A stretch of DNA of 64,000 nucleotides from Cymodocea nodosa. Its lineage: Eukaryota; Streptophyta; Magnoliopsida; Alismatales; Cymodoceaceae. The notes beneath the pieces were generated by a model that saw only the letters and a list, made by a program, of their open reading frames with translations, made no database searches and had not been told where the DNA came from. The stretch is taken from positions 5,605,501 through 5,669,500 of the forward strand of contig CM072345.1 of assembly GCA_036874045.1 (NCBI GenBank), read 5' to 3'. The position numbers were made by a program, and so were the translations under genes. This document shows positions 2,999 to 62,690 of the stretch, piece by piece (within the stretch, counting starts at the first letter, position 1; each line of letters starts with the position of its first letter).

Positions 2999-4216
2999 TG
3001 TAGGATCATCTGTATCACAAGAAGGGGGGTGAATTGTGTCTTTAGTAATTAAACTAGTGGATAAAACAAGAGTACAAAACACTCGTAAGATGAAATTCTA
3101 TTCTTTTATTTCAAGACAGAATTTACAATATCTTTTCAGCTCAATTCCCTTCTTGACGGTTTTGATCTAGTAATTTTTGATATACAATTCAAATAGGAAA
3201 ACAAAGCTCTTTTTCAAAACTAATTTTGAATTGTATAAAACCTGATCTTTATGCACACAGCTCTTTTCTTTCTCTTTGCTCAGCTTCTGTATCTCTTCTT
3301 CTCTAGTTGTCGAATTTCCAGACTTCTTACGTTTGCAGCTCCTTTTCTAAAATTGCTTGGAATTTCGAACTTCTTCTAATGTTGGAGAACTTTTCAGAAT
3401 ATGAATATTCAAACTTAACTTTTCAGTTAGGGATCTAGATTGAATATTCAGACTTTGTTTTTTTTTTGAGATTGAGATCCTCTATTATAATGTAGCTCGT
3501 ACTCTCTATTAGTAGTCGAATTCTGTTGTCTTTCACGTTCAGCATGTTCATCCACTTGATCCACAATCCATAATTCACGTACTAATTTTCTCTTTAATCT
3601 AAATTACTTTCTATTTAAATTTCCACTTTCTTCACTAACTATTTGAGTTTCCACAATCTCCACTCGTAGATTCACCGAAACTTTATCTTCCTGGAGTCTT
3701 GTAGAATATCTTCTAAGTCTTCTATTTAGTCGAACATTTATCCTTTAACTCCTGTAAAAACTCGAATACTTATCCTTTAACTCTTCGAGTTTTTGCACCT
3801 GCAAAACACGTGACTAAACAAAGAAACTTATCTGTTCGTTAGTCCTTTTATAAAACTCGAACAGTTATCTATCCATGCATATAAAAACTCGAACAGTTAT
3901 CTAACTATTCGATTTTTCATTACTGAACACACATGGAAAACATGTGACAACTTAAAACATTAAAAACACACATGTAGATAACTTAACTATACGAGTTTTT
4001 AACATAAAGTATTCGACAAAAACGAAACGTTAACTATCCGAAAGTTTAACTATTCCAAATCTAGCTCTCCAGAAATCTTTAATTTATCCGACATAAAAAT
4101 GAAACTTTTCGATAATCTGTTAACTATTATACTTAGAGAAATATACTTAGAGAATATTATGTAAACTTATTTAAATACGTTAATAAAGCATATATCATAA
4201 AAATTAAATACCTAAC
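2999..4216 (-). repeat. 5' LTR of element E
   Basis: On the plus strand the LTR runs from TGTAGGATC to ...CCTAACA. About 1.2 kb. Its upstream (U3) half, at higher coordinates, is dense in CTCGAATAGTTA-type words and their reverse complements (3720-4080), and contains CACGTG-like sites. Short runs at its ends resemble LTR B, so E and B are related but distinct subfamilies. The other LTR of E is outside the window, so age cannot be judged. Confidence 0.8.
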
Positions 4217-4295
4217 AAAGGTGCTTTATTGAGTTATATATATATATTTCATAATTGAGTTAATATGGTTTTGTCATCATCAAAAAGGGGGAGAT
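4217..4295 (+). other. 3' tail and polypurine tract of Copia element B
   Basis: About 80 bases of AT-rich 3' untranslated sequence end in AAAAAGGGGGAGA (4282-4294) directly before the LTR start TGTTAAG. The same tract precedes the 3' LTRs of A1 and A2. This fixes the orientation of B as plus and shows the following LTR is its 3' LTR. The rest of B is hidden behind the E insertion and lies outside the window. Confidence 0.85.
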
Positions 4296-4611
4296 TGTTA
4301 AGTATTTTGTTTTGATGATGTGTGCTGAATGAAAGTAATCATATTTGCTAAATTACTATTGCTTATGAAAGAAAATTAAGAACATCAATTAATACAAAAA
4401 AAGTTTACAGATATAAATACCTGTCTATATTGGATCTTAAATTATATTGTTAAATAACTAGTCGTTTCGTTGCAGTAATTTCTCATTTAACTAAATGTTA
4501 AGTTAACGTGTGTTTTTTTATTGAAATGCATATGTTTTAAAGTTATATTTTCTGTATCATGAATAGTGCACGTTTAGACAACTCGTTAAGTTAGAGTGTT
4601 ATTTGTATAGA

Positions 4612-4728
4612 GGTCACGTGAGAACTCGTTAAGTTAAAGGCTTAAAGGTTAAAATAGGTCACGTGAGAACTCATTAAGTTAAAGGCTTAAAGGTTAAAAT
4701 AGGTCACATGAGAACTCGTTAAGTTAGT
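4612..4728 (+). repeat. 45-bp tandem repeat inside LTR B
   Basis: Three units starting at 4612, 4657 and 4702 repeat with a 45-base period. Each begins GGTCACGTGAGAACTCGTTA or a one- to two-base variant, combining a CACGTG site with the CTCGTTAAGTTA word. The repeat is in the upstream part of the LTR, where promoter control elements are expected. The third unit is partial. Confidence 0.85.
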
Positions 4729-5356
4729 GTTGTACACGTGGTGAAATTAAAGGTTACGAATGTTATATTGTATCATGTGAGTTGCATATGTTTAACTCGT
4801 TAACATAACTGCACGTGTTGAGTTGCTATATTGAACACTAAGGCAACGTGTTAGGTTAGCCTTATAAACTTAAGTTATTATTATTGCACATGGTAATATT
4901 CTTATTATAAAAACATTTGTTTATTACTAGTTCATTGAGTTATCTATAACACAACAGAATTGGTTCGTTGAGTTATCGTAACACCATGAAGCTTGTTCAT
5001 TGAGTTAGCGTAACACCATAGACTTAGTTCGTTGAGTTAGTTACAGTACTTGTCACATGAGTTGGCACATGAGGAACTCGTTAAGTTAGAAACGTTAAGT
5101 TATATATCTACTTGTTTTACTCATTTAATTAACATTAAAGTAACGACGTCTTATTACACTTGATGAAAAATTTTATACAAGAAAGTTTATTTTGCAGGAA
5201 ATTTTTCAGAGATCTAAGATTGATGACTAAAGAAAATTCGAAATGTAAACATGGGTCAGAATGTGTGTATTTTGATGAAGGAAAAAGAGAAGACGTGAAG
5301 AAGTGGAAAATTAGTACTAATTAAACGTGGAGGATATGCATGAAAAAAAGATATAG

Positions 5357-5365
5357 TATAAAAGG
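5357..5365 (+). promoter_or_regulatory. Likely TATA box of LTR B
   Basis: TATAAAAGG lies about 1.06 kb into the LTR, between the word-rich upstream half and the purine-rich downstream part. In the solo B LTR the matching site reads TATAAAAGG with a nearby ATATAG. The transcription start is inferred, not shown. Confidence 0.55.
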
Positions 5366-5826
5366 CATAGAATTCTCATTGATCAGTTATCCTTGCACAC
5401 CAAACAAAAAATCTTTTTAGGGATCAAAAACACATCTTTGGGGAAAAGCTCTCAGATGAAAGAAAATTTAGTGAAACAAAAAATGTCAGATTTATGTCAC
5501 TGAAGATTTGAAGTATTAGGAGAAAGCAAATTTAGTGAAGTGGAGAAAGTAAATTCAATAAAGTAGAGAAAGACAAGATATTTGTCACTAAAGAATTGCT
5601 GAAGAAGAAAAAGAAAAAGAAAGATCTCAAAAAAAGAAAAAGAAAGATCTCAAACAGGGAGAAATATTTTTAAATTCTGCAAATTAGTTTTCTTTGTTTG
5701 CAGTTATGAAATTGTATAGATGAAACATGGTATTGATATATAATTGCATCTACAATTTTTGAGGAGAATTGAATTGTATATTGTAATTGAAACCTTGAAT
5801 AAAAATGATTTTATGAAAACAATGTT

Positions 5827-5903: not shown

Positions 5904-7688
5904 TGTTAGAACCCGAGTATTTTGATAATGCAAAACCTATGTGAGGAAACATATTGTATTTCATAGTTAAGTCTGTACTACATTAGATTAGAAGGTTGTT
6001 AGAACAAATTCCAAGCAGATGAACAGATCAAGAAGGTTCCAGATGATAATACTTTCAAGATACAGCAAAATCGGACAGTTACAGGTTCAAGTATTCGAAG
6101 AGTAAAAAGCAGCAAGACTATCAGGCAGTTAGAAGGATAACTATCCGAATTTTACAAAGCCTTCGGAGAGTTATTTAATCAGACAGTTAAGAAGATTGAA
6201 TGATCGGATAGTTAAGGAGTTAACTATCCGGAAGCTTAAAGGACTTTTCGGAGAGTTACAAGTATAACTATCCGAAAGTTAAGTCATTCAATAAACCACG
6301 TGCAGAAATATAGAACGGAAGCTTAAAGGACTTGTCGGAGAGTTAGATAACTATCCAAGTTTTCTTTTTGGAGAGTTAGATAACTATTCAAGTTTTTTGG
6401 TAAGTTACAAGCATAACTTTCCAGAACTTAAGTCATTTTATTACGCACGTGCAAAATGGAAAAGCCGACAGTTGAAAGCTTAAAAGGGAAAATCGGAGAG
6501 TTAGATAACTATCCGAAATTTCAAAGAGAGTTTCGGTAAGTTACAGTTTAACTATCCGAAACTTAAGTCAGTGAATTTCCCACATGCAGAATTCTAGATA
6601 GATGCTCAAATGGGTTTTCGGAGAGTTAGAAAGATAACTATCCGAAATTTCAAAAGAATTTCGGTGAGTTACAGTTTAACCATCCGAAACTTAAGTCATT
6701 GAATTTACCATGTGTAGAATTCCAAAGAGTGGCTCAAATAAGTTTTCGGAGAGTTAGAGAAATAACTATCCGAAATCCTGAAGCATTTTGGTGAGTTACA
6801 GAGAGCCTTCCGAAACTTAAGTCAGCCCTTTTTGCACGTGCTAAATTAAAGAAATCGGAAAGTTGATAGAGTCAAACTATCCAACAAGTATATAACTGTT
6901 CGGTGAGTTACAGTTATAAGTATCTGATTGAATGACAGCTCACATTTAAATATTCTGGAATCCTACCTAGCAGTAAAGGTTAAGTGATCTTTCGGTGAGT
7001 TACAGATACTCTTTGGAGAGTTGCATAGCTAACTATCCGAAAGAACAGGAAAATCGGTAAGATATCTTGAAACGATTTTCTGAATGGTCACTTGCCGTAT
7101 TGGGACTTGAGGCTAATCAAGTACAATAGAATACATCCGTTAGAGGAAAATATGATCGTTGTACATATCAGGTATATATACAAATACAGACAACGAAGAT
7201 AGGTGAGCTACACTCCAAATTCCAATCACATTCAAGTCTGCAAACAGTGAAGAATATTCAGAAGATCTACTGTAGAAAAAGCTCTTGCGCCAAAACTCTG
7301 ATTGAAGGTTTAAAGTTGTTGGTTCGTGGCTTTAACCTGAAAGCTACATACAGTGTTGGTTTGAGTTTCGACCTAAAAACTCTAAAGGTTGGTTTATTGA
7401 AGTTTCGACCTGAAAACTTCTGTGTAGTTGGTTCTTGCTTTGACTTGAAAGCAAGTGTATAAGTGTTGAAACACTTAGTGAAGCCCAAGTGAATCTTAGG
7501 GGTGGACTAGCCAAATTGGTGAACCACCTAAAAAATTTACTGTCTGTTTCTTATCTCTGTTGATTTGCATTCTATTAGTTTCATCTCATTACATTTCTGT
7601 TGAATCATTCGATTCAACATTAAAAGAATTTTAAAAATACACACGTTCACCATTCACCACCCCACTAGTGAGCCTATCGATCCTAACA
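5904..7688 (+). repeat. 5' LTR of A1
   Basis: 1,785 bp. The upstream part (about 6050-7060) is a degenerate tandem array of roughly 125-155 base units, each with paired words such as TTCGGAGAGTTA and TAACTATCCGAA, the palindrome CTTAAG, and often CACGTG. A clear stem is CGGATAGTTAAGG followed by AGTTAACTATCCG (6205-6230). A TATATATA box lies at about 7173-7180, followed by the hairpin block and a conserved end. Confidence 0.95.
7316..7476 (+). promoter_or_regulatory. Tandem hairpin array in the family A leader RNA
   Basis: Four tandem units of 35-40 bases each begin GTTGGTT and hold a hairpin with loop close to ACCTGA. Stems are GTGGCTT/AAGCTAC (7326-7347), GAGTTT/AAACTC (7363-7382), GAAGTTT/AAACTTC (7399-7420) and CTTGCTTT/AAAGCAAG (7434-7455). 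A fifth, AAGTGTT-GA-AACACTT, follows at 7461-7476. The block lies between the TATA box and the primer site, so it should be in the 5' leader RNA, where packaging or dimerisation signals are usual. In the solo family A LTR (39140-39320) the stems differ but still pair. Function is inferred. Confidence 0.7.
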
Positions 7689-7690
7689 TT

Positions 7691-7702
7691 TGGTATCAGA
7701 GC
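7691..7702 (+). other. Primer-binding site of A1
   Basis: TGGTATCAGAGC, a perfect match to the complement of the plant initiator-Met tRNA 3' end, two bases after the 5' LTR. Confidence 0.95.
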
Positions 7703-7740
7703 AAGGTTAATTCTTCACAAGATTTAACCATCTAGATTTA

Positions 7741-9270
7741 TGGCTCAATTTGCTGAGGGACAAAACATCCACAGACCTCTTCTATTCGATGGTTCCAATT
7801 ATAACTATTGGAAGAATAGAATGGAGTGCTTCCTTAGGAGTTCAGATGTTAAACTCTAGAAGACTGTTGTTCTTGGAACTACACTTCCAACTAGTGATGT
7901 GACAAACTGGTCTGAGGAGGATGAGAAAATCATCCAGTTGGATGCTAGAGGGCTGAATGCCATTTATTGTGCACTAACTGCTGATCAATATAATAAGATA
8001 TCTACATGTAAATCTACTCATGAGGCTTGGAAAATCCTTCAAGTTACTTATGAAGGAACAAGCCAAGTCAAGGATACAAAAATCAGTATTCTTTTAAGAA
8101 AACTAGAACTATTTAAAATGAATGATAATGAAAACATAACTGAAATATTTTCTAGATTTACTGAAATCATTAACAGTCTGAAAGGCTTGGGAAAGGAGTT
8201 CTCTTCACGTGAACAGGTACAAAAGATCTTGAGGAGCTTAACTGTTGAGTGGAAACAGAAGTTCACATCTATTCAAGATTCCAAGGATCTCAACAATTAC
8301 ATAGTTGAAGAACTGTTGGGCAATCTTCTGGCCCACGAAGCTCAGATGAAGGACTGAAAAGAGCAAGGAGCTGTTGAAAAGAAAGCTGAAAAGAAAAAGG
8401 AAATGACATTTCCATCCATAGAGGAAGTTCTAAGCTCAGACAATGATGAGATCATGTTGTTGGCAAGGAACTTCAGAAGGTTTATGAAGAAAAAGAATAA
8501 GTCCCGCTCTTCTAAAAGAACGGTCCCTACATGTTTCAAATGTAAAAGGCAAGGGCACATACAGACCTTCTGTCCATTTCAGACAGAAGAGGATCAAGGA
8601 GATAAGCAGAAGAAATTGAAGGACAAAAAGAAGATGGCTCTCAAAGCTACGTGAGATGACAATAGCTCTTCATGCTGTTCATCAGATTCTGAAGAAGAAG
8701 CAGCAGCCAATGTTTGTTTTGCAGCACAAGAGGTATGTTCTACTTCCTCTAGTTCAGAAAATGAACATGATGAGTTAGACATAAACAGTCTTCTATCTAT
8801 TGTAGATAATTTATATGTGAAGTGTAGAGATTTTAAGAAAGAAATTAAAAGATTAAATCATTGCTTAGAAAATTCATTTGCTGAATTAGAATCAACTATA
8901 GTTAAAAATAGAAATCTAAAATCAAATTTAGATAAGTGCAGTTGTGATAACTGTGAATTAAAAGATGAAAATAAAAATCTATTAACTACTATATCAGATT
9001 TGAAAGATACTCAAGGACAAAAAGGATTAAATGAAATAATAGGATCTCAATGATCAAATGAGAATAAATATGGCCTAGGGTATGCTGCACCATAGGAAAT
9101 ACCTTATTGTGGTAGAGTGATTCAATCTTATAGAGATGGCACCACTATGTTTGCCATCAAACGAAGATCAAGTCATATGTGGCTACCAAGAGGCAATAGA
9201 TTTAATGTTTTAAGGACTAACTCTACTGGACCCAAGAAGATTTGGGTACCAAAAGCTTTAATTTCAGTAT
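7741..9270 (+). pseudogene. gag remnant of A1
   Basis: Starts MAQFAEGQNIHRP and shows the Copia gag signature FDGSNYNYWKNRMECF, a UBN2-type capsid region (7899-8357), a CCHC zinc knuckle (CFKCKRQGHIQTFC, 8532-8573), an acidic Ser-rich stretch and a coiled coil (8817-9050). The same gag is better preserved in A2 (55874-57412). Long gag with coiled coil is typical of Sirevirus-like elements. Broken, with several breaks. Confidence 0.9.
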
Positions 9271-9289
9271 GATTTGTAGGGTGACAAGG

Positions 9290-12200
9290 AGTTTCAAACA
9301 CATTCAACTAAATAGATTGTGGACAATGGATGCTCAAAGTACATGACAGGTAAGAAAAGCTTTCTTGACTTAGTTAAAAACTTAAGTTCAAGATCTGTTA
9401 AGTTTGGAAATAATGAAAAGTGTAAAATAACTACAATAGGAAATATTACATCTGAAAATGGTATAATTGAGAATGTCTTGCATGTAAATGGTTTAAAATA
9501 AAATTTGTTAAGTGTAGGACAATTATGTGATAAAGGCTATACTATTTCTTTTAATGCTAAAAACTGCTACATTATTGATCCTGCCACAAATGAAACAAAA
9601 TTTACTGGTATTAGAAATTGCTCAATATATACATTAAACTTTCCATGTGAAAATTCTGCAAGCAATTCCTGTTTGGTAGCAACTGGTGAAGACGATTGGG
9701 TGTGGCATAGAAGACTTGGTCACATCAGTATGAAGAATATCAGAAAGCTATCCACGGGTGATCTTGTTAGGGGTCTGCCTAAACTCACTTTTAAGAAGGA
9801 TAGAGTGTGCAGTGAGTGTATGCTAAGGAAGCAGAAGAGAACTGCTATTCACAGCAAAAATGTTGTGTCCACCAAAAGGCCATTAGAACTACTACATCTA
9901 GATTTGTTTGGTCCTTCTCAAGTATCAAGTCTTGGGGGTCGAAAATATACCTTTGTTATTGTTGATGATTTCTCCAGATTAACTTGGGTAATATTTTTGA
10001 CACATAAAAATGAAACTTGCAATGAGTTCAGGAATTTCTGCATAAGAGTTCAGAATCAGAAGGAACTAACAGTGAAGAAAATTAGAAGTGATCATGGAGG
10101 TGAATTTGAAAACTATGATTTTGAAAACCTCTGCAATTCATTTGGAATTCTGCATGAATTCTCTTGTCCTAAAACTCCTACTCAAAATGGAGTTGTGGAA
10201 AGGAAAAATAGAACATTACAAGAAATGGCTAGAACTATGTTAAATGCCATGGATCTACCTAAATTTCTCTAGGCAGAAGCTATAGGAACAACTTGTCACA
10301 TTTCCAATAGAACTCACATTAGATCCACATTGAATAAGACACCCTTTGAAATTTGGTTCAATAAAACTCCAAATGTTGGCTATTTTAAGACATTTGGATG
10401 CAAATGTTTTGTCTTAAATACAGGAAATGCTAAAGACAAGTTTGATGCTAAGTTTGAACCTGCCATACTCGTTGGTTACTCCTCGAGAAGCAAAGCTTAT
10501 AGAGTATATTTTGCTAAAGATAGAAGAGTGGAGGAAAGTATAAATGTTCAGTTTGATGAAGATCTGATCTAGAATTTCAAAAAGTTGAAGATTAAATATG
10601 ACAGTGAAAATGAATACTTTGAAGATGATAACTGCAAGCAGAAACTCAAATCACAAGTGTCAAACCAGAATCTCCACAATAGATTTCAGAATCTTGATAG
10701 TTGGAAGTTTAGATCTGATCATCCCGAGGAACAAATTATTGGAAATATATCTAAAGGGGTACAAACTAGGAGCAAAGCACAAGATATCTGCAATTTTTGT
10801 GCATTTGTGTCAAAAATAGAGCCAAAATCAGTAGATGAAGCATGTAAGGATACCTATTGGACTATGGCTATGCAAGAAGAATTAAATCAGTTTCAAAAAA
10901 ATAATGTTTTGGAACTAGTAGAAAAACCTACAGGAAAATCCATCATTGGAACTAAATGGATTTTCAAAAATAAATTAGATGAAGAGGGTAATATTCTCAA
11001 AAATAAAGCTCGATTAGTTGCTCAAGGCTACAATCAGTAAGAAGGTATTGACTATGAAGAAACTTTTGCTCCCATAGCCAGAATTGAAGCTATCAGAATG
11101 TTGCTTGCTTTTGCAAGTAGTATGAAGATAAGATTGTTTCAAATGGATGTGAAAAGTGCCTTCTTAAATGGAGAAATTCAGGAAGAAGTGTTTGTCAAAC
11201 AACCTCCTAAATTTGAAGATGAATTTAAGCCAAATCATATCTTCATACTAAGAAAGGCTCTTTATGGTCTAAAACAGGCACTGTAAATGCTTTTATGTGT
11301 TATTAAAATAATGGCAAAAGCGCAAATTTTACATTTATAACCGCAAGCGCACGGTGTCCATTGTAATAAGCATGTGCAAGTATGGGTCGAATCCACAAGG
11401 AGTTTGTCTTAAATAATTTTATTAAAATGATTGTTTGATAAAACATCCACTCTATTAATTCTACAATTAAAACTCTAATTACATGCAATTAAGTTACAAT
11501 TTACAGAAATACAATAAAGATTTCAAAGGTAGCATAAAACTTGTTAATTCCTAGAGCTAATAGCTAGAAAACTCAAGAAAATCTTAAGTTCACGTTTCTG
11601 GAATCACAAAAATTAGTCCGAATTCTAACTCTTCTTCCTTCCAACCTGGACATTGAAAAATCCAGAGAAAATATTGGTTGGAAAGGTCATCGAGTTATCT
11701 TTAAAATGGCAGTAATTTCCAGGAATAATTCACTCTAGGTTGCTGCCAAAATCGGATATACAAACAGTGTACAAAACAATTCTGAAAACTTTCCAAAAAC
11801 ACATCGTTGGTGTAAAAATCATAACTCAATCAACTCTTCATGAAACACCACGAAATCACCGCGCCTTGAAAGATAACTCGTTTCTCTAATCAGGAAAATT
11901 TACAGGAAAACATTTTGGAATGCACAAAAGCAAGGCAACACGAAAGCGTTGAGCACAATTTCTGTTGCTCGACCAGTAAAACAGAGCAGATGCTACCTTC
12001 GAAAGAAAAATTGAAAAACTAAAGAAATGCATTCTAAAAAATTCCAACAACACTACATACGTATTGTACACTTAAATTACTTACAAAAAAACTATAACAC
12101 GACATATAACTCTGAGAAATCAAATCGTACAACATACAACAAAATGGAACATGCACTGGAATTTATAGCAAACAGGATATACACGCATTCACAAGGTTTA

Positions 12201-14549
12201 AGAGTTAGTTTTATGCACAACATTCACATATTCACATGAAGCAACTATATTCCATGAGATCTAATCTAAAACAACTATTTAAATTAAAGAAATAAAGATT
12301 TAACAAAGATCCTAAACATGCATACATTTATAAATTAAAAATACCTAAATACTCATACACATTTGATATGAAAATATGTTTACAAGTATGAGGATCTCTC
12401 CCTTCTCTTTTACCTTTAATTCATCCACTTCTCTTCAAGAATTTGATCCCTATTTGATGATGAACTACTTTGTCCGCTCCTCTACAAGGGTGTCACCACT
12501 TGCAAATCACGTCTAAAGGGGAACCGCCTATGTTTGCTTTGGAGAAAATGGGTTGGACGTCCTCAATCCACTTCCAAGATATACGGATTTGTTAGCTTTC
12601 CTCTCAATTTTGATGCTTCCTATTACCTCATCTTGAAGATCACGTCCCAAGCTATTCCAATGCTGCACATGTGCCTCCAATACCACCGATTTCACCCGTG
12701 GAGGTCCTTCCGTATGTCAGCTTGGAGTGGAGAGAAGGAGGTCTTCTAATATGAGGGGGAAGGCGCCTAAGCTCACCAATGTTGGAGGAAAACTCTTCCA
12801 AAATCTTGGGTGGAAGAGGATGGACGAAAATTGGAGTTGGAGTTCTTGCCCTTGCGTGGAGGAGAAAGAGGAGATCATCTTTCCTTTGGCCAACCATCGG
12901 CCAACCATCCTCTTTTTCTTTCCATTGTCATCCATCTATGGAAATATTTCAAACACCTTCCAATTTGTGGCATCTAATTTAGGCAAGCTTTAATCATTGA
13001 TTGATTGATTGGTGGATTGATTTGGAGTTTGAATTGGACGACCATGAGTTGCTGATTTCCCATGATTTAATCCAAGGATCCACGTCCTCACCTATAACAA
13101 CTCAAAAGATAACATTAAATGCATATGCACATTACACATAAATTGCTACACAATTATAAAGCAAAAATGAAATGTGCATAATATATTGCTTGCTCAATTG
13201 AGGATTATTTGATTTCATATCTTAATGATAATTCTTTTAATATATGCATGAAATCAATATATAAATTACTTATATCTACACATGGGCTAATTGACTAGGT
13301 GTTAATTTAATAAAGGATAAATTTGTGCATTATTGACTATTTAACCAATAAAACATGCATAGTTCCAAAATATGATTTTCATGTAATCTTTCATAAGAAC
13401 ATATATAATGATGACTTATAATCCTTAATATGCATGAATTAACATATATAAAATGCACAAATTGATACTTTACAGGCACCTAGAGCATGGTATGAGAAAT
13501 TGAAAAAGTTTTTAACTAGAAACAATTTTTCTATAAGCAAAGTGGACAGCACTTTATTTATCAAAACTTTTGATGTGCATATGTTGATTGTACAGATATA
13601 TGTTGATGATATAGTCTTTGGAGCCACTTCAGAAGATCTTTGTCATGAATTTCAGAATTTGATGAAAAATAAATTCGAAATGAGCATGATGGGAGAATTG
13701 AAGTTTTTCTTGGGATTACAGATTCATCAAGTGCATAATGGTATCTTTGTCAACCAAGAAAAATACTGCAAAGAAATGTTGAAGAAATTTGGTTATGAAA
13801 ACATCAAATCCGCAAATACTCTAATGAGTTCAAGCATTAAAATAGAAATGGATGATTCAAGTGTTGTAGTGGATCAAAGGCAATATAGAGGTATGATTAG
13901 ATCCCTGTTATATTTTTCAGCTAGCAAGCCAAATATTATGTTCAGTGTATGCTTATGTGCTAGATTTCAAGCATCACCAAAGGAATCACATTTGAAATCA
14001 GTCAAAAGGATTTTCAGATATCTACAATGAACAAAAGATTTTGGATTATTCTACTTAGTTGACAATAGTTTGATTTTAACAAGCTATAGTGATGCAGATT
14101 ATGTAGGTAGTAGATCTGATAGAAAAAGCACCAGTGGTACTTGCCAATTACTTGGATGTTCTTTAATCTCATAGTTCAGTAGGAAACAAAATTGTATAGC
14201 TTTATCTACTACTGAAGTTGAGTATATTGCAGCTTGATTGTGCTGTGCACAAATCCTTTGGATGCAGCAAACTCTAGCAGATTATGGACTGAAAATTCAG
14301 AATTCAATCATATTTTGTGATAACAGCAGTGCAATTAGTCTATCTAAGAATACAGTACTTCATTCCAGAGCCAAGCATATCGAGATCAGACATCATTTTC
14401 TGAGAAATCATGTGGAAAAAGGGAACATTTCACTTAAGTTTGTACCAACAGAAAATCAACTTGTAGATATTTTCACCAAACCTTTAAATGAATCAACTTT
14501 TAATCATATTAGACGAAATCTAGGAATATGTTCTTTACAAGATATTTAA
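9290..14549 (+). pseudogene. pol remnant of A1 (protease, integrase, RT, RNase H)
   Basis: Domains in Copia order: protease motif near 9316-9350 (DNGCSKYMTG), integrase start WHRRLGH (about 9703-9723), CSECML zinc pair, catalytic integrase core with IVDDFSRLTWV and PTQNGVVERKNRT, then reverse transcriptase (FQMDVKSAFLNG near 11137; YVDDIVFG near 13599) and RNase H ending near 14549 (ADYG...TKPLNES). The RT region is split by the solo Gypsy LTR at 11282-13474. Closely similar to A2. Fossil with about ten breaks. Confidence 0.92.
11282..13474 (-). repeat. Solo Gypsy LTR (G-related) inside A1
   Basis: Ends are TGTAAA...TTTACA and it is flanked by a perfect GGCAC duplication (11277-11281, 13475-13479), restoring a continuous RT region on either side. 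2,193 bp with no coding domain. Near its left end it shares with the G1 and G2 LTRs the line CGCAAGCGCACGGTGTCC, ...CAAGTATGGGTCGAATCCAC, a conserved block in this type of Gypsy LTR, in the same orientation, which is why I place it on the minus strand. It is a related but different family. A solo LTR implies loss of the interior by LTR recombination. Confidence 0.85.
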
Positions 14550-14649
14550 ATATTTTTCTTTCATCAAGCTCACCATATGGGAGCTTGTTTTTTGCTAACC
14601 AACTCGTGTAGGATACAGTCAAAATCAGTTTTACAGTCCTCACCTTTTT

Positions 14650-14925
14650 ATATAATGACAAAAAGGGGGAGAAGAATTTGGAAATTTGTCAAGTATATGG
14701 TCACTTACAGTATTTCCAGCAAGAATTGAAAGAGAAAAACTCAGCACACAGATAGGGGGAGAAGTCTGCTCAAAGTCAGGGGGAGGAATCTCTCCTCGTC
14801 AGTATAGTTTTGATAAATTCCTGTTTTATGTTTCTCTGTGTGACTAAATGTATAGAAATACACTAGGGAGTGAAATACATGTAAATAATTGTAAAAGTTT
14901 TTGTCATTATCAAAAAGGGGGAGAT
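14650..14925 (+). promoter_or_regulatory. Multiplied polypurine signals upstream of the A1 3' LTR
   Basis: Four related purine tracts occur in this 3' untranslated stretch: AAAAAGGGGGAGAAG (about 14663), ATAGGGGGAGAAG (about 14753), CAGGGGGAGG (about 14778), and the tract adjacent to the LTR, AAAAAGGGGGAGA (14912-14924). The same pattern recurs in A2 at 60614-60884. Repetition of the polypurine tract upstream of the 3' LTR is a described feature of Sireviruses; the last copy is the expected plus-strand primer. Confidence 0.85.
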
Positions 14926-16824: not shown

Positions 16825-16829
16825 TTGTT

Positions 16830-21123: not shown

Positions 21124-21185
21124 CTGTTGTGATTCTGTATGACATAAACAAAAATTAACAGAGACAAAATCAACATAGCTACTTC

Positions 21186-26726: not shown

Positions 26727-26778
26727 ACAAGTGAATATAATAATAAAAATATTACAAAGAATAGTTTTTCTTTTTTTA

Positions 26779-40392: not shown

Positions 40393-40397
40393 AATAA

Positions 40398-44389: not shown

Positions 44390-44860
44390 TTTTTGTATTG
44401 TTATGTTTTACTCTTCTATAAACTCGAATAGTTAGATTTCTCTCTAAGTTTCTATTTTAAATTCTTATATTTCATCTTTTTAAGAAACTCGAACAGTTAT
44501 GCTTAAGTCTTTGACTTTTTCGCATATCCATTTAAGAAACTCGAATAGTTAACTTAATATTATTATATTTTTTATGAAAGACTTAAAATATGACAATAAC
44601 TATTCTAGTTTGTCATATAGTTATGTGCTTTACTACTCATAAAACTCGAATAGTTATCATAAGTCTTCGAGTTTTCTCATTTTTACTTACCCAGTAGTTA
44701 TTTTCTTTACACGAACAGTAACACTAAGTCTTCTACTTTTATAGGTGGTAAAACTCGTACAGTTATTGTAAGTATTCGAGTTATTTATTAGTAACAGATC
44801 TTATATTTATGACTTCAATGATTGAATCTATTTATCCGTTTATAAACTCGAAGAGTTATA
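44390..44860. promoter_or_regulatory. CTCGAATAGTTA word array upstream of frame D
   Basis: ACTCGAATAGTTA or close variants (centre AAT, AAC, AAG) appear near 44417, 44481, 44536, 44641, 44751 and 44844, plus a reverse copy near 44600. The array ends about 100 bases before the frame D start. Confidence 0.7.
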
Positions 44861-44964
44861 AATGTTTTACTGACAACCTTTCGTGTTTCTACCTTGGTAA
44901 AACCCTAGTTTCACAATCTTTACTTCCACTAAGTTCTACAGTGAACAACGAAGATAAATCGACA

Positions 44965-47694: not shown

Positions 47695-47696
47695 AT

Positions 47697-54057: not shown

Positions 54058-55822
54058 TGTTAGGACCCTAGTATTTTGATAATGCAAAACCTATGTGAGG
54101 AAACATATTGTATTTCACAGTTAAGTCAGTGCAGCATTAGATCAGAAGGCAGATAGAATAGATTCCATGCAGATGAATAGATGGAGAAGTTTCCAGATAA
54201 TACTGTCTTAAACTTACAAGAAAATTAGATAGTTATAGGTTTGAAGAGTAAGTTTAAAACAGTAGCAATACTATCGAACAGTTAGAAGAATAACTATCCG
54301 AAATTGTAAAGCCTTCGGAGAGTTATTTTATCAGACAGTTAAGGGGATTGAATGATCGGATAGTTAAGGAGTTAACTATCTGGAAGCTTGAAGGACTTTT
54401 CGGAGAGTTACAGGTATAACTATCCGAAAGTTAAGTCATTCAATAAACCACATGTAGAAATATAGAACGGAAGCTTAAAGGACTTGTCGGAGAGTTAGAT
54501 AACTATTCGAGTTTTTTGGTAAGTTATAGGCATAACTTTCTGGAACTTAAGTCATTTTATTACGCACGTGCAAAATAGAGAAGCCAGCAGTTGAGAGCTT
54601 AAAAGGGAAAATCGAAGAGTTAGAAAGATAACTATCCGAAATTTCAAGAGAGTTTCGGTGAGTTACAGTTTAACTATCCAAAACTTAAGTCATTGAATTT
54701 CCCACATGTAGAATTCCAAACAAATGCTCAAATGGGTTTTCGAAGAGTTAGAAAGATAACTATCCGAAATTTCAAAAGAGTTTCGGTGAGTTATAGTTTA
54801 ACCATCTAAAACTTAAGTCACTGATTTTCCCACGTGCAGAATTCCAAAAAGAAATGCAAATAAGTTTTCAGAGAGTTAGAAAGATAACTATCCGAAATCT
54901 TAAAGTGTTTCGGTGAGTTACAAGGATAACCATTCAAAACTTGAGTCAGCCTTTATGCACGTGCTAAATTAAAGTAATCGAAAAGTTAATAGAGACAAAC
55001 TATTCGACAAGTATATAACTGTTCGATGAGTTACAGTTATAAGTATCCAATTGGATGACAGCTCACATTTAAATATTCTGGAATCCTACCTGGCAGTAAA
55101 GGTTAAGTGATCTTTCAATGAGTTACAGTTATTCTTTGGAGAGTTGCATAGCTAACCATCCGAAAGAACAGGAAAATCGGTAAGATATTTTGAAACGATT
55201 TTTCTGAACGGTTACTTGCAGTATGGGACTTGATCCTAATCAAGTATAGTAGAATACACTCGTTGGAGGAAAATATGATCGTTGTACATATCAAGTATAT
55301 ATTCAAAATACAAACAACAGATATATGAAAACATACACAGCAAGCTACACTAAAAATTCCAATTACATTCAAGTCTGCAAATAGTGAAGAATATTTAGAA
55401 GATCTACTGTAGAAAAAGCTCTTGCGCCAAAACTCTGATTGAAGGTTTAAAGTTGTTGGTTCATGGCTTCAACCTGAAAGCTACATATAGTGTTGGTTTG
55501 AGTTACGACCTGAAAACTCTAGAGGTTAGTTTACTGAAGTTTTTACCTGAAAACTTCTGTGTAGTTGGTTCTTGTTTTGACCTGAAAGCAAGTGTAAGTG
55601 TTGAAACACTTAGTGAAGCCCAAGTGAATCTTGGGGGTGGACTAGCCAAATTGGTGAACCACCTAAAATTTTCCTGTGTGTTTCTTATCTCTATTGATTT
55701 GCATTATATTAGTTTCATCTCATTACATTTTTGTTGAATCATTCGATTCAACATTAAAAAAATTTTAAAACTACACACTTTCACCATTCACCCCCCCTCT
55801 AGTGAGCCTATCGATACTAACA
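54058..55822 (+). repeat. 5' LTR of A2
   Basis: 1,765 bp, TGTTAGGACCC...ATACTAACA. Has the degenerate paired-word array (54290-55160), CACGTG sites near 54565, 54830 and 54959, and the hairpin block (about 55450-55615). Confidence 0.95.
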
Positions 55823-55824
55823 TT

Positions 55825-55836
55825 TGGTATCAGAGC
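55825..55836 (+). other. Primer-binding site of A2
   Basis: TGGTATCAGAGC, perfect initiator-Met type, two bases after the LTR. Confidence 0.95.
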
Positions 55837-55873
55837 AAGGTTAATCCTTCATAAGATTTAACCATCTAGATTT

Positions 55874-57412
55874 ATGGCTCAATTTGCTGAAGGACAAAAC
55901 ATCCACAGACCTCCCCTATTCGAAGGCTCCAATTATAACTATTGGAAGAATAGAATGGAGTGTTTCCTTAGGAGTTATGATGTTAAACTCTGGAAGATTG
56001 TTTTTCTTGGAACTACACTTTCAACCAATAATGTTATGGATTGGTCTGACGAGGATGAGAAAATCATCTAGTTGGATGCTAGAGGGTTGAATGCCATTTA
56101 TTGTGTACTAACAACTGATCAATATAATAAAGTATCTGCATGTAAATCTGCTCATGAGGCATGGAAAATCCTTCAAGTTACTCATGAAGGTACAAGCCAG
56201 GTTAAGGATACAAAAATCAGTATTCTTTTAAGGAAACTTGAACTGTTTAAAATGAATGATAATGAAAACATAACTGAAATGTTTCCTAAATTTACTGAAA
56301 TCACTAACAGTCTGAAAGGCTTGGGAAAGGAGTTCTCTTCACGTGAACAGGTACAGAAGATCCTAAGGAGCTTAACTATTGAGTGGAAACAGAAGTCCAC
56401 ATCTATTCAAGATTCCAAGGATCTTAACAACTATACAGTTGAAAAATTGTTGGGCAATCTTTTGGCCCACGAAGCTTAGATGGACTGGAAAGAGCAAGAA
56501 GGAACTGTTGAAAAGAAAGCTGAAATGAAAAAGGAAATAGCATTTCCATCTACAGAAGAAGCTCCAAGCTCAGATGATGATGAGATCATGTTGCTGGCAA
56601 GAAATTTCATGAAGAAAAAGAATAAGCCCAGCTACTCTAAAAGAACTGTTCCTACATGTTTCAAATGTAAAAGGCAAGGGCACATACAGACCTTCTGTCC
56701 ATTTCAGACAAAAGAGGATCAAAGAGATAAAAAGAAGAGATTGAAAGACAAAAAGAAGATGGCTCTCAAAGCTACATGGGATGACAGTAGCTCTTCAAGC
56801 TGTTCATCAGATTCTGAAGAAGAAGCTGCAGCAAATGTTTGTTTTGCAGCACAAGAGGTATGCTCTACTTCCTCTAGTTTAGAAAATGAGCATGATGATC
56901 TAGACAGAAATAGTCTTTTATCTACTGTAGATAATTTATATGTGAAGTGTAGAGATTTTAAGAAAGAAATTAAAAGATTAAATCATTGCTTAGAAAATTC
57001 ATTTGCTGAATTAGAATCAACTATAGTTGAAAATAGGAATCTAAAATCAAATTTAGATAAGTATAGTTGTGATAACTGTGAATTAAAAGATGAAAATAAA
57101 AATCTATCAACTACTATATCAGATTTGAAAAATACTATATGTAAATTTACTCAAGGACAAAAAGGATTAAATAAAATAATAGGATCTCAACGTTCAAATG
57201 GGAATAAATATGGCCTAGGGTATGCTACACCACAGGAAATACCTTATTGTGGTGGAGTGATTCGATCTTATAGAGATGGCACCACTATATTTGCCATCAA
57301 ACGAAGATTAGGTCATATGTGGCTGCCAAGAGGCAATAGATTTAATGTTTTAAGGACTAACTCTATTGGACCCAAGAAGATGTGGGTACCAAAAGCTTTA
57401 ATTTCAGTATAA
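55874..57412 (+). pseudogene. gag of A2
   Basis: Starts MAQFAEGQNIHRPPLFEGSN with the Copia gag signature, followed by a UBN2-type capsid region (56072-56479), CCHC zinc knuckle (CFKCKRQGHIQTFC, about 56657-56698), Ser/Asp/Glu-rich run, and a long coiled coil with IKRLNHCLENSFAELESTIV (about 56960-57030). Better preserved than in A1. About three breaks. Confidence 0.93.
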
Positions 57413-57413
57413 T

Positions 57414-60400
57414 TTGCAGGGTGACAAGGAGTTTCAAGCACGTTCAACTAAATGGATTGTGGACAGTGGATGCTCAAAGCATATGACAGGTAAGAAAAGC
57501 TTTCTTGACTCAGTTAAAAACATAAGTTCAGGATCTGTTAAGTTTGGAAATAATGAAAAGTGTAAAATAACTGCAATAGGAAATATTACATCTGAAAATG
57601 GTATAATTGAGAATGTCTTGCATGTAAATGGATTAAAACAAAATTTGTTAAGTGTAGGACAATTATGTGATAAAGGCTATACTATTTCTTTTAATGCTAA
57701 AAACTGCTACATTATTGATCCTGCCACAAATGAAACAAAATTTATTGGTATTTGAAATTGCTCAATATATACATTAAACTTTCCATGTGAAAATTCTGCA
57801 AGCAATTCTTGTTTGGTAGCAATTGGTGAAGACGATTGGATATGGCATAGAAGACTTGGTCACATCAATATGAAGAATATTAGAAAGCTATCCACGGGTG
57901 ATCTTGTTAGGGGTCTGCCTAAACTCACTTTTAAGAAGGATAGAGTGTGCAGTGAGTGTATGCTAGGGAAGCAGAAGAGAACTACTCTTCACAGCAAAAG
58001 TGTTGTTTCCACCAAAAGGCCATTAGAACTGCTACATCTAGATTTGTTTGATCCTTCTCAAGTATCAAGTCTTGGGGGTTGAAAATATACCTTTGTTATT
58101 GTTGATGATTTCTCCAAATTAACTTGGGTGATATTTTTGACACATAAAAATGAAACTTGCAATGAGTTCAAAAATTTCTACATAAGAGTTCAGAATCAGA
58201 AGGAACTAATAGTGAAGAAAATTAGAAGTGATCATGGAGGTGAATTTGAAAACTATGAATTTGAAAACCTCTGCAATTCATTTGGAATTTTGCATGAATT
58301 CTCTTATCCTAGAACTCTTGCTCAAAATGGAGTTGTGGAAAGGAAAAATAGGACATTACAAGAAATGACTAGAACTATGTTAAATGCCACGGATCTACCT
58401 AAATTTCTCTAGGCAGAAGCTGTAGGAACAGCTTGTCACATTTCCAACAGAACTCACATTAGATCCATTTTGAATAAGACACCCTTTGAAATTTGGTTCA
58501 ATAAAACTCCAAATGTTGGCTATTTTAAGACATTTGGATGCAAATGTTTTGTCTTAAATACAGGAAATACTAGAGACAAGTTTGATGCTAAGTCTGAACC
58601 TGCCATACTTGTTGGTTACTCCTCGAGAAGCAAAGCTTACAGAGTATATTTTGCTGAAGATAGAAGAGTGGAGGAAAGTATAAATGTTCAGTTTGATGAA
58701 GATCTGTTACAGAATTTCAAAAAGCTGAAGATTTATAATGATAGTGAAAATGAATATTTTGAAGATGATAACTACAAGCAGAATACCATTTCACAAGTAT
58801 CAGACCAGAATCTCAACCATAGATGTCAGAATCATAACAATTGGAAGTTTAGATCTGATCATCCCAAGAAACAAATTATTGGAAATATATCTAAAGGAGT
58901 ACAAACTAGAAGCAAAGCACAAGATATCTGCAATTTTTGTGCATTTGTGTCAGAAATAGAGCCAAAATCAGTAGATGAAGCTTATAAGGATACCTACTGG
59001 ACAATAGCTATGTAGGAAGAATTAAATCAGTTCCAGAAAAACAATGTGTGGGAACTAATAGAAAAACCTGTAGGAAAATCCATCATTAGAACTAAATGGA
59101 TTTTCAAAAACAAATTAGATGAAGGTAACATTCTCAGGAATAAAGCTCGATTAGTTGCACAAGGCTACAATCAACAGGAAGGTATTGACTATGAAGAAAC
59201 TTTTGCTCCTATAGCCAAGATTGAAGTTATCAGAATGTTGCTTGCCTTTGCAAGTAGTATGAAGATAAGATTGTTTCAAATGGATGTGAAAAGTGCCTTC
59301 TTAAATGGAGAAATTCAGGAAGAAGGGTTTGTTAAACAACCTCCTGGATTTGAAGATGAACTCAAGCCGGATCATGTCTACAAACTAAGAAAGGCTCTAT
59401 ATGGTTTGAAACAGGCACCTAGAGCTTGGTATGAGAAATTGAAAAAAAATTTAACTGAAAACAATTTTTCTATAGGCAAAGTGGGCAGCACTTTGTTTAT
59501 CAAAACTTTTGATGTGCATATGTTGATTGTTCAAATATATGTTGATGATATAGTCTTTGGAGCCACTTTAGAAGATCTCTGTCATGAATTTCAGAATTTA
59601 ATGAAAAATAAATTCGAAATGAGCTTGATGGGAGAATTGAAGTTTTTCTTAGGATTACAGATTCATTAAATGCATAATGGTATATTTGTCAACCAAGAAA
59701 AATACTACAAAGAGATGTTGAAGAAATTTGGTTATGAAAACATCAAATCCGCAAATACTCCAATGAGTTCAAGCATTAAAATAGAAATGGATGATTCAAG
59801 TGTTTCAGTGGATCAAAGGCAATATAGAGGTATGATTGGATCCATGTTATTCCTTTCAACTAGCAGGCCAGATATTATGTTCAGTGTATGCTTGTGTGTT
59901 AGATTTCAAGCATCACCAAAGGAATCACATTTGAAATTTGTCAAAAGGATTTTCAGATATCTACAAGGAACAAAAGATTTCGGATTGTTCTACTCAGCTG
60001 ACAGTAGCTTGATTTTAACAAGCTATAGTGATGCAAATTATGTAGGCAGCAGATCTGATAGAAAAAGTACTAGTGGTACTTGTCAACTACTTGGATGTTC
60101 TTTAATCTCATGGTTCAGTAGGAAACAAAATTATATAGATTTATCTACTACTGAAGCCGAGTATATTGCAGTTGGATTGTGCTATGCACAAATCCTTTGG
60201 ATGCAACAAACTCTAGCAGATTACAGACTGAAATTTCAGAATTCAATCATATTTTTTGATAATAGCAGTGCAATTAGTCTATCTAAGAATACAGTACTTC
60301 ATTCCAGAGCCAAGCATATCGAGATCAAACATCATTTTCTGAGAGATCATGTGGAGAAAGGGAACATTTCACTTAAGTTTGTGCCAACAGAAAATCAACT

Positions 60401-60480
60401 TGCAGATATTTTCACCAAACCTTTAAATGAATCAACTTTTAATCATATTAGATGAAATCTAGGAATATGTTCTTTACAAG
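57414..60480 (+). pseudogene. pol of A2 (protease, integrase, RT, RNase H)
   Basis: Protease motif WIVDSGCSKHMTG (about 57453-57491, catalytic DSG kept), integrase WHRRLGH (about 57842), CSECMLGKQKR, core with RSDHGGEF and QNGVVERKNRT, RT with FQMDVKSAFLNG (about 59275) and YVDDIVFG (about 59539), RNase H with GYSDA-like SYSDANYVGSRSDRKSTSGT (about 60020) and HIEIKHHFLRDHVEKG. Copia order. Fossil with about six breaks. Confidence 0.94.
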
Positions 60481-60613
60481 ATCTTTAAATATTTTTTCTT
60501 CAAGCTCACCATATGGGAGCTTGTTTTTCTACTAACCTTCTCGTGCAGGATACAGTCAATATCAGTTTTTACAGAAACTTAGTTTTACAGTCCTCACCTT
60601 TTTATATAATGAC

Positions 60614-60884
60614 AAAAAGGGGGAGAAGAATTTGGAAATTTGGTCACTTACAGTATTTCTAGCAAGCACTGAAAGAGAATCATTAAAAGAGAAGAAAAAC
60701 TCAGCACATAGATAGGGGGAGAAGTCAGCTCAAAGTCAGGGGGAGGAATCCATTCTCGTCAGTATAGTATTGATAAATTCCTATTTTATTTTTCTCTGTG
60801 TGACTGATTGTATAGTAATACACTAGGGAGTGAAATACATGTAAATAGATGTAAAGGTTTTTGTCATTATCAAAAAGGGGGAGA
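60614..60884 (+). promoter_or_regulatory. Multiplied polypurine signals of A2
   Basis: AAAAAGGGGGAGAAG (about 60616), ATAGGGGGAGAAG (about 60713), CAGGGGGAGG (about 60738), and AAAAAGGGGGAGA adjacent to the 3' LTR (60872-60884). Same four-part layout as A1. Confidence 0.85.
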
Positions 60885-60885
60885 T

Positions 60886-62685
60886 TGTTAGGACCCTAGT
60901 ATTTTGATAATGCAAAACCTATGTGAGGAAACATATTGTATTTCACAGTTAAGTTAGTGCAGCATTAGATCAGAAGGCAGATAGAATAGATTCCATGCAG
61001 ATGAACAAATGGAGAAGTTTCCAGATAATACTGTCTTAAACTTACAAAAAAATCAGACAGTTACAGGTCCGAAGAGTAAGTTTAAAACAACAGCAATACT
61101 ATCAGACAATTAGAAAAATAACTATCCGAAATTCTAAAGCCTTCGGAGAGTTATTTTATCAGACAGTTAAGAGGATTGAATGATCGGATAGTTAAGGAGT
61201 TAACTATTCGGAAGCTTGAAGGACTTTTCGGAGAGTTACAGGTATAACTATCTGAAAGTTAAGTCATTCAATAAACCAAGTGCAGAAATACAGAACGGAA
61301 GTTTAAAGGACTTGTCGGAGAGTTAGATAACTATCCGAGTTTTCTTTTCAAAGAGTTAGATAACTATTCGAGTTTTTCGATAAGTTACAGGCATAACTTT
61401 CCAGAACTTAAGTCATTTTATTACGCACGTGCAAAATAGAGAAGCCGGCAGTTGAAAGCTTAAAAGGGAAAATCAGAGAGTTAGAAAGATAACTATCCGA
61501 AATTTCAAGAGAGTTTCGGTGAGTTACAGTTTAACTATCCAAAACTTAAGTCATTGAATTTCCCACATGCAGAATTCCAAACAGATGCTCAAATGGGTTT
61601 TCGGAGAGTTAGAAAGATAACTATCCGAAATTTCAAAAGAGTTTCGATGAGTTACAGTTTAACCATCCGAAACATAAGTCATTGATTTTCCCACGTGTAG
61701 AATTCCAAAAAGAAGTGCAAATAAGTTTTCGAAGAGTTAGAAAGATAACTATCCGAAATCCTAAAGCGTTTCGGTGAGTTACAGGGATAACCATTCGAAA
61801 CTTGAGTTAGCCTTTATGCACGTGTTGAATTAAGGCAATTGAAAAGTTAACAGAGACATACTATCCGACAAGTACATAATTGTTCGGTGAGTTACAGTTA
61901 TAAGTATCCGATTAGATGATAGCTCACATTTAAATGTTCTAGAATCCTACCTGGCAGTAAAGGTTAAGTGATCTTTCGGTGAGTTACAGTTATTCTTTGG
62001 AGAGTTGCATAGCTAACCATCCGAAAGAACAGGAAAATCGGTAAGATATCTTGAAACGATTTTTCTGAACGGTCACTTGTAGTTTGGGACTTGATCCTAA
62101 TCAAGTACAATAGAATACACCTGTTGGAGGAAAATATGATCGTTGTACATATCAAGTAAATATTCAAAATACAGATAACGGATATACGAAAACATACACA
62201 ACAAGCTACACTAAAAATTCCAATTACATTCAAGTCTGCAAATAGTGAAGAATATTCAGAAGATCTACTGTAGAAAAAGCTCTTGCCCCAAAACTCTGAT
62301 TGAAGGTTTAAAGTTGTTTGTTCGTGGCTTCAACCTGAAAGCTACATACAGTGTTGGTTTGAGTTTCGACCTAAAAACTCTAGAGGTTGGTTTACTGAAG
62401 TTTTTACTTGAAAACTTTTGTGTAGTTGGTTCTTGCTTTGACCTGAAAGCAAGTGTGTAAGTGTTGAAACACTTAGTGAAGCCCAAGTGAATCTTGGGGG
62501 TGGACTAGCCAAATTGGTGAACCACCTAAAATTTTCCTGTGTGTTTCTTATCTCTATTGATTTGCATTATATTAGTTTCATCTCATTACATTTTTGTTGA
62601 ATCATTCGATTCAACATTAAAAGAATTTTAAAACTACACACTTTCACCATTCACCCCCCCTCTAGTGAGCCTATCGATACTAATA
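60886..62685 (+). repeat. 3' LTR of A2
   Basis: 1,800 bp, with paired-word array (61120-62030) and hairpin block (about 62303-62475). Terminal CTAACA has become CTAATA. Followed by GATGA. Confidence 0.95.
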
Positions 62686-62690
62686 GATGA

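Follow-up and report, generated by a model that had tools for sequence, protein, structure and literature searches.

Paired copies of one gapped word recur in copia and gypsy LTRs of Cymodocea nodosa and may be sites for a host DNA-binding protein

Sirevirus-type copia LTRs and gypsy LTRs in a 64-kb window of Cymodocea nodosa DNA (the whole stretch analyzed, and the scope of every claim made here on the word) share the strict word YTCGNNNAGTTA. Its frame, YTCGNNNASTTA, leaves three central bases free and allows 64 centres. We propose, with a probability of about two in three, that these LTRs carry in U3 host-factor enhancer arrays of a kind known in Sireviruses, here common to Ty3/gypsy elements and probably exchanged with them, and that a putative host DNA-binding protein uses the word as its half-site.

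The window holds 103 strict matches on both strands, compared to 0.64 expected and a maximum of 3 in 100 dinucleotide shuffles. A first-pass annotation of this DNA had noticed dozens of words where about one was expected, and the count bears this out. The shuffled-motif control that it proposed was run within the window: 1679 permutations of the word that kept its letters and its gap gave a median of 1 match and a maximum of 25, and 7 of them reached at least 10. The reversed and the complemented word had no match in the window. The annotation's central observation, one frame common to Sirevirus-type copia and gypsy LTRs, is confirmed far above chance in each set, as strict words number 56 in A, 5 in D, 14 in B, 5 in E1, 6 in E2 and 12 in G, each above its 200 simulated sets (maxima of 1-2). 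Chance was set aside as the source of the word, the permuted-word and simulated-set counts being far lower.

The gap is exactly three bases, since other gaps from 0 to 9 yield only 0 to 5 matches. The commonest gapped word of the form 3+N3+5 in the window is TCGNNNAGTTA (n=127); ranks 2-5 (55-67 each) are alternative cuts of the same arrays, and AAANNNAAAAT (n=54) follows them. The nine outer positions, described earlier as constant, turned out to be looser. One-step variants are enriched at the head (C at position 2, 20; A at position 1, 20), at the tail (GGTTA, 10; ACTTA, 11) and as CpG-decay forms (19 and 22, around 3 expected each), while changes at the last three positions total 9. The core of R2R3-MYB sites is TAACTG, or CAGTTA on the other strand. 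This candidate was rejected and the MYB resemblance seen in AGTTA/TAACT is weak, as the C required at the third centre base occurs in 5 of the 103 words and ACTTA tails are enriched too.

The LTRs and stretches concerned are the following.
5904..16824, plus strand: A1, Sirevirus-type copia element; LTRs 5904-7688 and 14926-16824, ends TG..CA, TSD TTGTT on both sides
54058..62685, plus strand: A2, same family as A1; LTRs 54058-55822 and 60886-62685, TSD GATGA
38961..40392, minus strand: D, diverged solo LTR of the A lineage within a gypsy LTR; TSD TTATT, aligning over long segments with A LTRs at 68-71%, 5 strict words
4296..5825, plus strand: B1, 3' LTR of Sirevirus-type family B; AGGGGGAG-AT-TG junction in an inverted repeat, right boundary approximate
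44983..46711, minus strand: B2, solo LTR of family B; TSD TCGTC, 8 strict words
2999..4284, minus strand: E1, 5' LTR of family E; PBS-like TAGTATCAGAGT past the LTR end, 5 strict words, upstream boundary uncertain
44240..44984, plus strand: E2 stretch, which probably belongs to the 3' LTR of a copia element; 6 strict words, boundaries uncertain
31869..33722, minus strand: G1, 5' LTR of a gypsy element; PBS TGGCGCC adjoining, A-type, TTA-type and TTG-type modules
16825..18730, minus strand: Ga, gypsy LTR stretch adjoining A1; 77-94% identity to other gypsy LTR stretches, G1-like modules
37621..41038, minus strand: G2, gypsy LTR copy split by solo LTR D; five strict words (37894, 37926, 40537, 40672, 40689)
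20800..26800, no strand assigned: gypsy-related stretch; five strict words outside LTR intervals (23061, 23110, 23162, 23195, 26691)

Families A and B show two features of Sireviruses. The polypurine tract AGGGGGAG is followed by an AT/TG junction at 14916 and 60876 (A) and at 4286 (B1), and the junction with the 3' LTR lies in an inverted repeat, CATTATCAAAA..TTTTGATAATG in A1 and A2 and CATCATCAAAA..TTTTGATGATG in B1. The linker holds four copies of the tract in A1 and four in A2; for B1 one was seen. A1 has its PBS, TGGTATCAGAGC, at 7691, and its segment 11281-13472 has no match in A2. Among 14 internal ORFs of at least 70 aa in A2, those of at least 100 aa line up as a single gag-pol-like run that stops interrupt, A2 being one broken copy; one of three scanned ORFs has a Pfam match (RVT_2) and the remaining ORFs were labelled by eye. 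The 5' and 3' LTRs carry 15 and 12 strict words in A1, none of them more than 1.26 kb from the start of its LTR, and 13 and 16 in A2. B1 has 6, four of them CTCG-TTA.

A copia gag (PF14223, 1623-2552) supports E1, and the copia element to which E2 probably belongs has RT-like sequence (41548-42967). Gypsy RNase H and integrase, in support of G1, lie at 27435-29255 (PF17917, PF17919, PF17921, PF00665), and at 33682-35289 PF00078 precedes RNase H and PF17921. The G elements have RT and RNase H before integrase, in gypsy-type domain families, as in Ty3/gypsy. The PBS TGGCGCC (31855) may point to the Tat/Athila lineage. G1 carries 2 strict words (11 with the CG-relaxed spelling), Ga 3, and the LTR fragment 24088-24894 of the gypsy-related stretch 2.

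Strict words fall inside the LTR intervals in 98 of 103 cases; these intervals cover 20.5 kb of the 64 kb and were set by hand, that of E2 being drawn around its own six words. The internal regions of A1, A2, G1 and G2 (21.3 kb) and a separate copia element (5.3 kb) contain neither strict nor CG-relaxed words. Several observations count against our explanation. When CpG-decayed forms are allowed, words appear in the interior of A1 (2), A2 (1) and G2 (1), and in 46711-54057 (2), 41041-44300 (1) and the gypsy stretch 25301-31865 (7); one CG-relaxed word lies in 18731-20799. TATA-like matches also occur within the arrays, and the A2 3' LTR has none. In favour of the explanation, in three gypsy copies a TATA box stands 12 bp past the end of the last dyad, which amounts to one observation because the copies are homologous.

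The predominant unit in the window is a dyad, word-N2-7-inverted word. Among 284 relaxed words, tail-to-tail pairs at gaps of 2-7 number 82, compared to 14, 5 and 10 in the other orientations, in line with the earlier remark that words often lie near their own reverse complement. Spacing within dyads varies from 2 to 7, which counts against our explanation. Family B words outside an A-type block, present in B2 and absent from B1, are mostly single, yet they keep the frame. The arrays are accompanied by the G-box CACGTG, found 37 times (2.9 expected; maximum 10 in 60 simulations). Of these, 34 lie in LTR intervals and 31 have a CG-word no more than 60 bp away; the zones so defined take in 15% of the window. 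Against our explanation stand the absence of G-boxes from the E2, G2a, 24088-24894 and 20800-23400 stretches and the fact that those of family A recur with tandem units. Proximity controls at the same distance were mixed (GTGCAC 5/10, ACATGT 10/29, CTCGAG 0/3, GACGTC 0/2, TCTTAAGA 0/1); AGTTAACT was near a word in 11/11 cases and overlaps the word itself. CACATG/CATGTG is only mildly enriched (50 vs. 26.7, maximum 44).

By sequence comparison, one U3 module is homologous between family B and gypsy LTRs (best E around 1e-30, identity 69-85%, mostly outside the words). Its best-matching copies are listed here.
46161..46314, minus strand: B2 copy of the shared U3 module; 154 columns, 77% to 18218-18362, E around 1e-30
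18218..18362, minus strand: gypsy copy of the module shared with family B, matching 46161..46314

Between these two copies, 23 of 24 positions are identical in words and 96 of 121 outside; over the module comparisons, identities outside word positions are 75/90, 78/93, 96/121, 98/125, 86/118 and 91/119. Orientation relative to transcription is the same in the B and gypsy copies. Apart from the module, copia-gypsy LTR matches are short and fall mostly on words. On exchange, the module end gives a mixed signal. A 9-base stretch there is common to G1 and B and missing from Ga and G2b, which could be explained by deletion; in substitutions, the G1 module end is nearer to Ga (76/91) than to B (78/100, 79/100). 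The homology probably arose by exchange between copia and gypsy elements.

The three central bases had been read as family-specific, and a cross-tabulation with family had been proposed. Within the window, the association does hold: mutual information between centre and family is 1.23 bits for the 103 words (shuffled mean 0.47, 0/5000 as high) and 1.55 vs. 0.88 (0/5000) for a reduced set of 54 words, drawn from all gypsy stretches and a single LTR of each family, although related copies are not independent and the shuffles are not clean probabilities. The first base (Y) is likewise linked to family (0.49 vs. 0.08). Exclusiveness does not hold. GAT occurs outside family A in B (46043), E1 (4031) and G (40672), TTA in G (18276, 40537, 37926) and TTG in B (4964, 5028, 45846), while family A has two CTCG-AAT and one CTCG-GAT. 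The centre also differs by arm in A, where words running with the element have G or A as their third centre base (33/33) and words running against it have T (23/23). When A1 is compared with A2, divergence in the centre is like that in the flanks (identity 0.88-0.94 vs. 0.91-0.93), with 0.95-0.99 identity at the outer positions. When A is compared with D, identity is 0.70-0.83 at outer positions, 0.65-0.70 in flanks and only 0.40-0.70 at CG positions. As a test of selection this is weak, because words were picked as intact and their tail is AT-rich. With types crossing families and sharing due in part to homology of whole modules, the idea of a family label is not supported; the centre seems to record how modules descended and not to be a label that is read. 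It is improbable, in our judgement, that paralogous host factors or their dimers read YTCG-N3-ASTTA dyads by centre, as a real specificity code, and that LTR families of both superfamilies trade modules to switch the factor, and with it the tissue or stress, to which they respond.

In the explanation that we prefer, a putative sequence-specific host protein, most likely a transcriptional activator binding as a dimer, would read the word as its half-site, and binding would activate transcription. Several LTR families would thus carry the word in U3 as an enhancer, in dyad arrays or as single words, with G-boxes. The module may have moved between elements by template switching, gene conversion or insertion of LTR pieces. 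The centre would be a tolerated spacer, its family bias coming from a few founder modules that were duplicated and later exchanged. That two superfamilies have the same paired word, with some promoter pieces apparently traded, suggests that one plant regulator is tapped. A host factor as reader had been raised by the first-pass annotation and is plausible on the sequence evidence.

Descent could account for much of this with no factor at all, if a few ancestral repeats were tandem-duplicated and copied between LTRs. Family A words do sit in longer repeated units, its arms keep one asymmetry, and the B-gypsy homology extends well past the words. We nevertheless consider descent alone unlikely: between families the word stays while flanks differ (A against the B2 block, 43/48 identities in words and 14/26 outside, a comparison leaning that way by construction as words were chosen as matches), the single words of B keep the frame without being the A dyad, and the company of CACGTG is left unexplained unless copied along. 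Readers encoded by the elements themselves, matched to the family centre, have a precedent in the VANC anti-silencing proteins of Arabidopsis VANDAL transposons. Like the LTRs here, VANDALs have short repeats with a family bias in their non-coding parts; they are, however, DNA transposons coding for their own reader. The association of centre with family would fit such readers. Centres cross families and diverge like flanks, and A2 shows no further ORF of at least 100 aa beyond its gag-pol-like run, which leaves this proposal of the first-pass annotation unsupported for A; we find it hardly credible.

Two further readings concern the dyad and its CpG. RNA or cruciform hairpins, with small-RNA consequences, might be the selected unit, the dyads being near-palindromic; the available part of one study describes the palindrome regions of maize Sirevirus LTRs as small-RNA hotspots (PMC5311732). 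Arm centres in G match at 47/60 positions (34.7 shuffled, 2/2000 as high) and are identical in 10/20 dyads, an excess that may reflect mixed module types. Elsewhere pairing is not clearly above shuffled levels (A 66/141 vs. 63.1, 267/2000 as high; D 11/24 vs. 10.5; E 9/15 vs. 10.6) and identical centres are rare (A 2/47, D 0/8, E 0/5, B 0/2), so hairpins appear quite improbable. We judge it very improbable that the word is a silencing target, recognized by a host repressor or methylation-guiding factor. It contains CpG by definition and its decayed forms are frequent, which would fit methylated DNA, but a silencing target would be expected to disappear, and the A LTRs have built up 12-16 strict copies each.

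The arrays resemble the RM boxes of Sireviruses (Bousios et al., 2010; PMC2829016), which, in the available part of that paper, also occur as many palindromic copies per LTR, mostly in the upper half, before the TATA box and with CpG. A CGG-CCG core is found in 12 of its 13 listed motifs. The A dyads read TTCGG..CCGAA, and the Osr9 motif TTTTCGGACWTRTCCGAAAA resembles their outer part; the core is missing from the words of B and E (CTCGTTA, CTCGAAT), and the YTCG-N3-AGTTA frame is in 0/13 listed consensus motifs. RM boxes are called there Sirevirus-specific with respect to classic copia elements, whereas the frame found here is also in gypsy LTRs, with a shared module. Plant LTRs are known to be bound by host factors through short motifs, HSFA2 on ONSEN and WRKY on EVADE (PMC12786077, available part); there the factor is known, while ours is a candidate only and one word spans LTRs of two superfamilies. 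The same source describes RNA recombination at strand switch within the ONSEN family, a similar route for swapping promoter pieces; here the partners would be a copia and a gypsy LTR. Among the literature matches listed, titles and abstract openings named no word or module common to copia and gypsy LTRs, the available part of PMC9744471 had nothing on cross-superfamily exchange, and a search with six exact 12-base words turned up 8 papers, with plant retrotransposons in no title. In viral contigs the dyad pattern occurred in 4 stretches, taken as a raw count, and an RT search there returned a single pattern match but no relative. Two further searches gave 7965 and 7863 hits; among the 120 listed for each, every named species is a plant, and identities reach 67% in one (66% for the best named, Citrus sinensis) and 64% in the other.

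If enhancer modules move between copia and gypsy elements, an element's promoter would evolve partly apart from its coding body. If they are traded, unrelated elements of the same genome could end up under a common host regulator. The motif, the dyad and the module are concrete handles for finding the candidate regulator.

The strict word YTCGNNNAGTTA, 12 bases with a three-base centre, has 103 matches in the window, whereas 100 dinucleotide shuffles averaged 0.64 and never gave more than 3. Permuting it into 1679 words with letters and gap unchanged gave a median count of 1 and a top count of 25 in the window, which confirms the claim of the first-pass annotation that the word lies far above chance there. 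The reversed and the complemented word had no match in the window, and gap lengths from 0 to 9 other than 3 gave just 0 to 5 matches each. What we say of the word, its frame and the module below applies to this window of 64,000 nt.

Nested LTR retrotransposons make up most of the window. Among the protein matches listed, the relatives with a species name belong to plants and the highest identity is 67%, which points to plant DNA. Four of the elements and solo LTRs have identical 5-base target duplications:

5904-16824, A1, family A element (Sirevirus-type copia)
54058-62685, A2, family A element
38961-40392, D, diverged solo LTR of the A lineage
44983-46711, B2, solo LTR of family B (Sirevirus-type copia)

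In families A and B the junction is AGGGGGAG, AT/TG, with a surrounding inverted repeat, the type described for Sireviruses by Bousios et al. (PMC2829016). E1, a family E copia LTR, is located ahead of a copia gag, and E2 is probably part of a copia element's 3' LTR. The G elements carry RT, RNase H and integrase domains of gypsy type and a TGGCGCC primer site adjoining the LTR. About 2.2 kb of A1 (11281-13472), probably a nested insertion, have no counterpart in A2. Inverted repeats of 231 bp (85%; 23860-24090 and 24995-25225) flank a gypsy LTR fragment.

Fourteen hand-drawn LTR intervals totalling 20.5 kb, with that of E2 set around its own words, hold 98 of the 103 strict words; the remaining five lie in gypsy-related DNA (23061-23195 and 26691). 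By set, we counted 56 in A, 5 in D, 14 in B, 5 in E1, 6 in E2 and 12 in G, with simulated maxima of 1-2 (200 sets each), word copies inside one LTR and LTR copies within a family being non-independent. Neither strict nor CG-relaxed words were found in the internal regions of A1, A2, G1 and G2 or in a separate copia element, C (47323-52605); 18731-20799 holds a single relaxed word. The LTRs of element C are 370 bp, 95% alike and word-free. Its sequence recurs in opposite orientation around A2, as an LTR piece just before it (53804-54057) and directly after it (62685-64000, matching 51057-52368 at 92%). A 233-aa open frame without Pfam match occupies 52634-53335.

The first word lies 166-287 from the LTR start in A, D, B and E1. 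In three gypsy copies a TATA box follows 12 bp past the end of the last dyad (two words tail to tail); other LTRs have TATA-like matches inside as well as after the arrays, so the main support for placing the arrays in U3 comes from how far the first words lie from the LTR start and from the parallel with Sireviruses. As the first-pass annotation stated, palindromic repeats are known in Sirevirus LTRs: the U3 motifs described in PMC2829016 are palindromic and repeated like the words here, but differ in sequence.

Relaxing the word to CG, TG or CA plus an [AG][GC]TTA tail gave 284 matches in the window. Tail-to-tail pairs at gaps 2-7 numbered 82, against 14, 5 and 10 in the other orientations, which bears out the proposed pairing with the reverse complement. 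The two words of a dyad stand 6, 2 or 5 bases apart in A, usually 4 in G (12/20), 6 or 7 in D and 2-5 in E; family B has two dyads, its other words being single. The outer positions, said to be constant, come close to that at the TTA end (9 changes altogether), but specific changes are enriched elsewhere: a C in position 2, an A in position 1, the tails GGTTA and ACTTA, and CpG decay (19 and 22 decayed forms, about 3 expected each).

Centres follow family in part. Centre and family are associated (1.23 bits vs 0.47 shuffled over 103 words; 1.55 vs 0.88 over 54), with 0/5000 shuffles as high in either case, but types are shared between families: G also contains GAT and TTA, B contains GAT and TTG, E1 contains GAT, and A contains CTCG-AAT. 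The first base is also family-linked (0.49 vs 0.08). Dyad arms differ throughout in centre in A (33/33 and 23/23) and in D (2/2 and 3/3). The A, D and E dyads give no support for hairpin selection, while in its favour the G arms match above the shuffled level (47/60 vs 34.7). Between A1 and A2, identity is 0.88-0.94 at the centre, 0.91-0.93 in flanks and 0.95-0.99 at outer word positions, the last not independent of the selection of intact words. Given the family crossing, the arm differences and a centre identity near that of the flanks, we take the centre to be a spacer in which module descent is recorded.

A U3 module is common to B and gypsy LTRs and runs the same way with respect to transcription in both.

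Module pairs between B and gypsy LTRs (identities outside words)
B2-Ga: 46161-46314 and 18218-18362, 154 columns, 77%, E about 1e-30; 96/121
B2-G1: 78/93
B2-G2b (piece of G2, which D interrupts): 91/119
B1-G1: 75/90
B1-Ga: 98/125
B1-G2b: 86/118

Module identity reaches 0.91 between B1 and B2 and 0.96 between Ga and G2b; B-G pairs range over 0.69-0.78, and G1 compared with Ga and G2b gives 0.66-0.69, the start of the G1 piece aligning poorly. In the last 100 bases, G1 and B share a 9-base stretch absent from Ga and G2b, whereas by substitutions G1 is nearer Ga (76/91) than B (78 and 79 of 100). B2 contains an A-type block, including ACTTAAGT and a G-box, that is absent from B1. Over 33 bases G1 matches an A dyad at 94% identity, reversed relative to transcription. 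On these alignments, exchange between elements would be the simplest reading of the shared module. Among the matches listed, we found no description in the open-licence literature of a frame common to copia and gypsy LTRs, nor of a module shared across superfamilies.

The G-box CACGTG occurs 37 times (2.9 expected), 31 of them no farther than 60 bp from a word, and the palindrome ACTTAAGT 31 times (2.45 expected), 21 within that distance; this territory covers 15% of the window, and short control words within it were mixed (0/3, 5/10, 10/29, 0/2, 0/1). Both cluster with words across 3807-61819, in most word-bearing LTRs. Together the three look like a composite enhancer, not a lone motif. A reader coded by the elements themselves, as the first-pass annotation suggested, is unlikely in family A, since its longer internal ORFs make up one gag-pol-like run; the hinted MYB core also fared poorly, TAACTG being in just 5/103 words. 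Short dyads of fixed frame, arrayed with G-boxes in several LTR families, have the look of enhancers bound by host factors, and we infer that a host protein binds the word and activates. Host-factor control of this kind is described for the plant LTRs of ONSEN and EVADE (PMC12786077).
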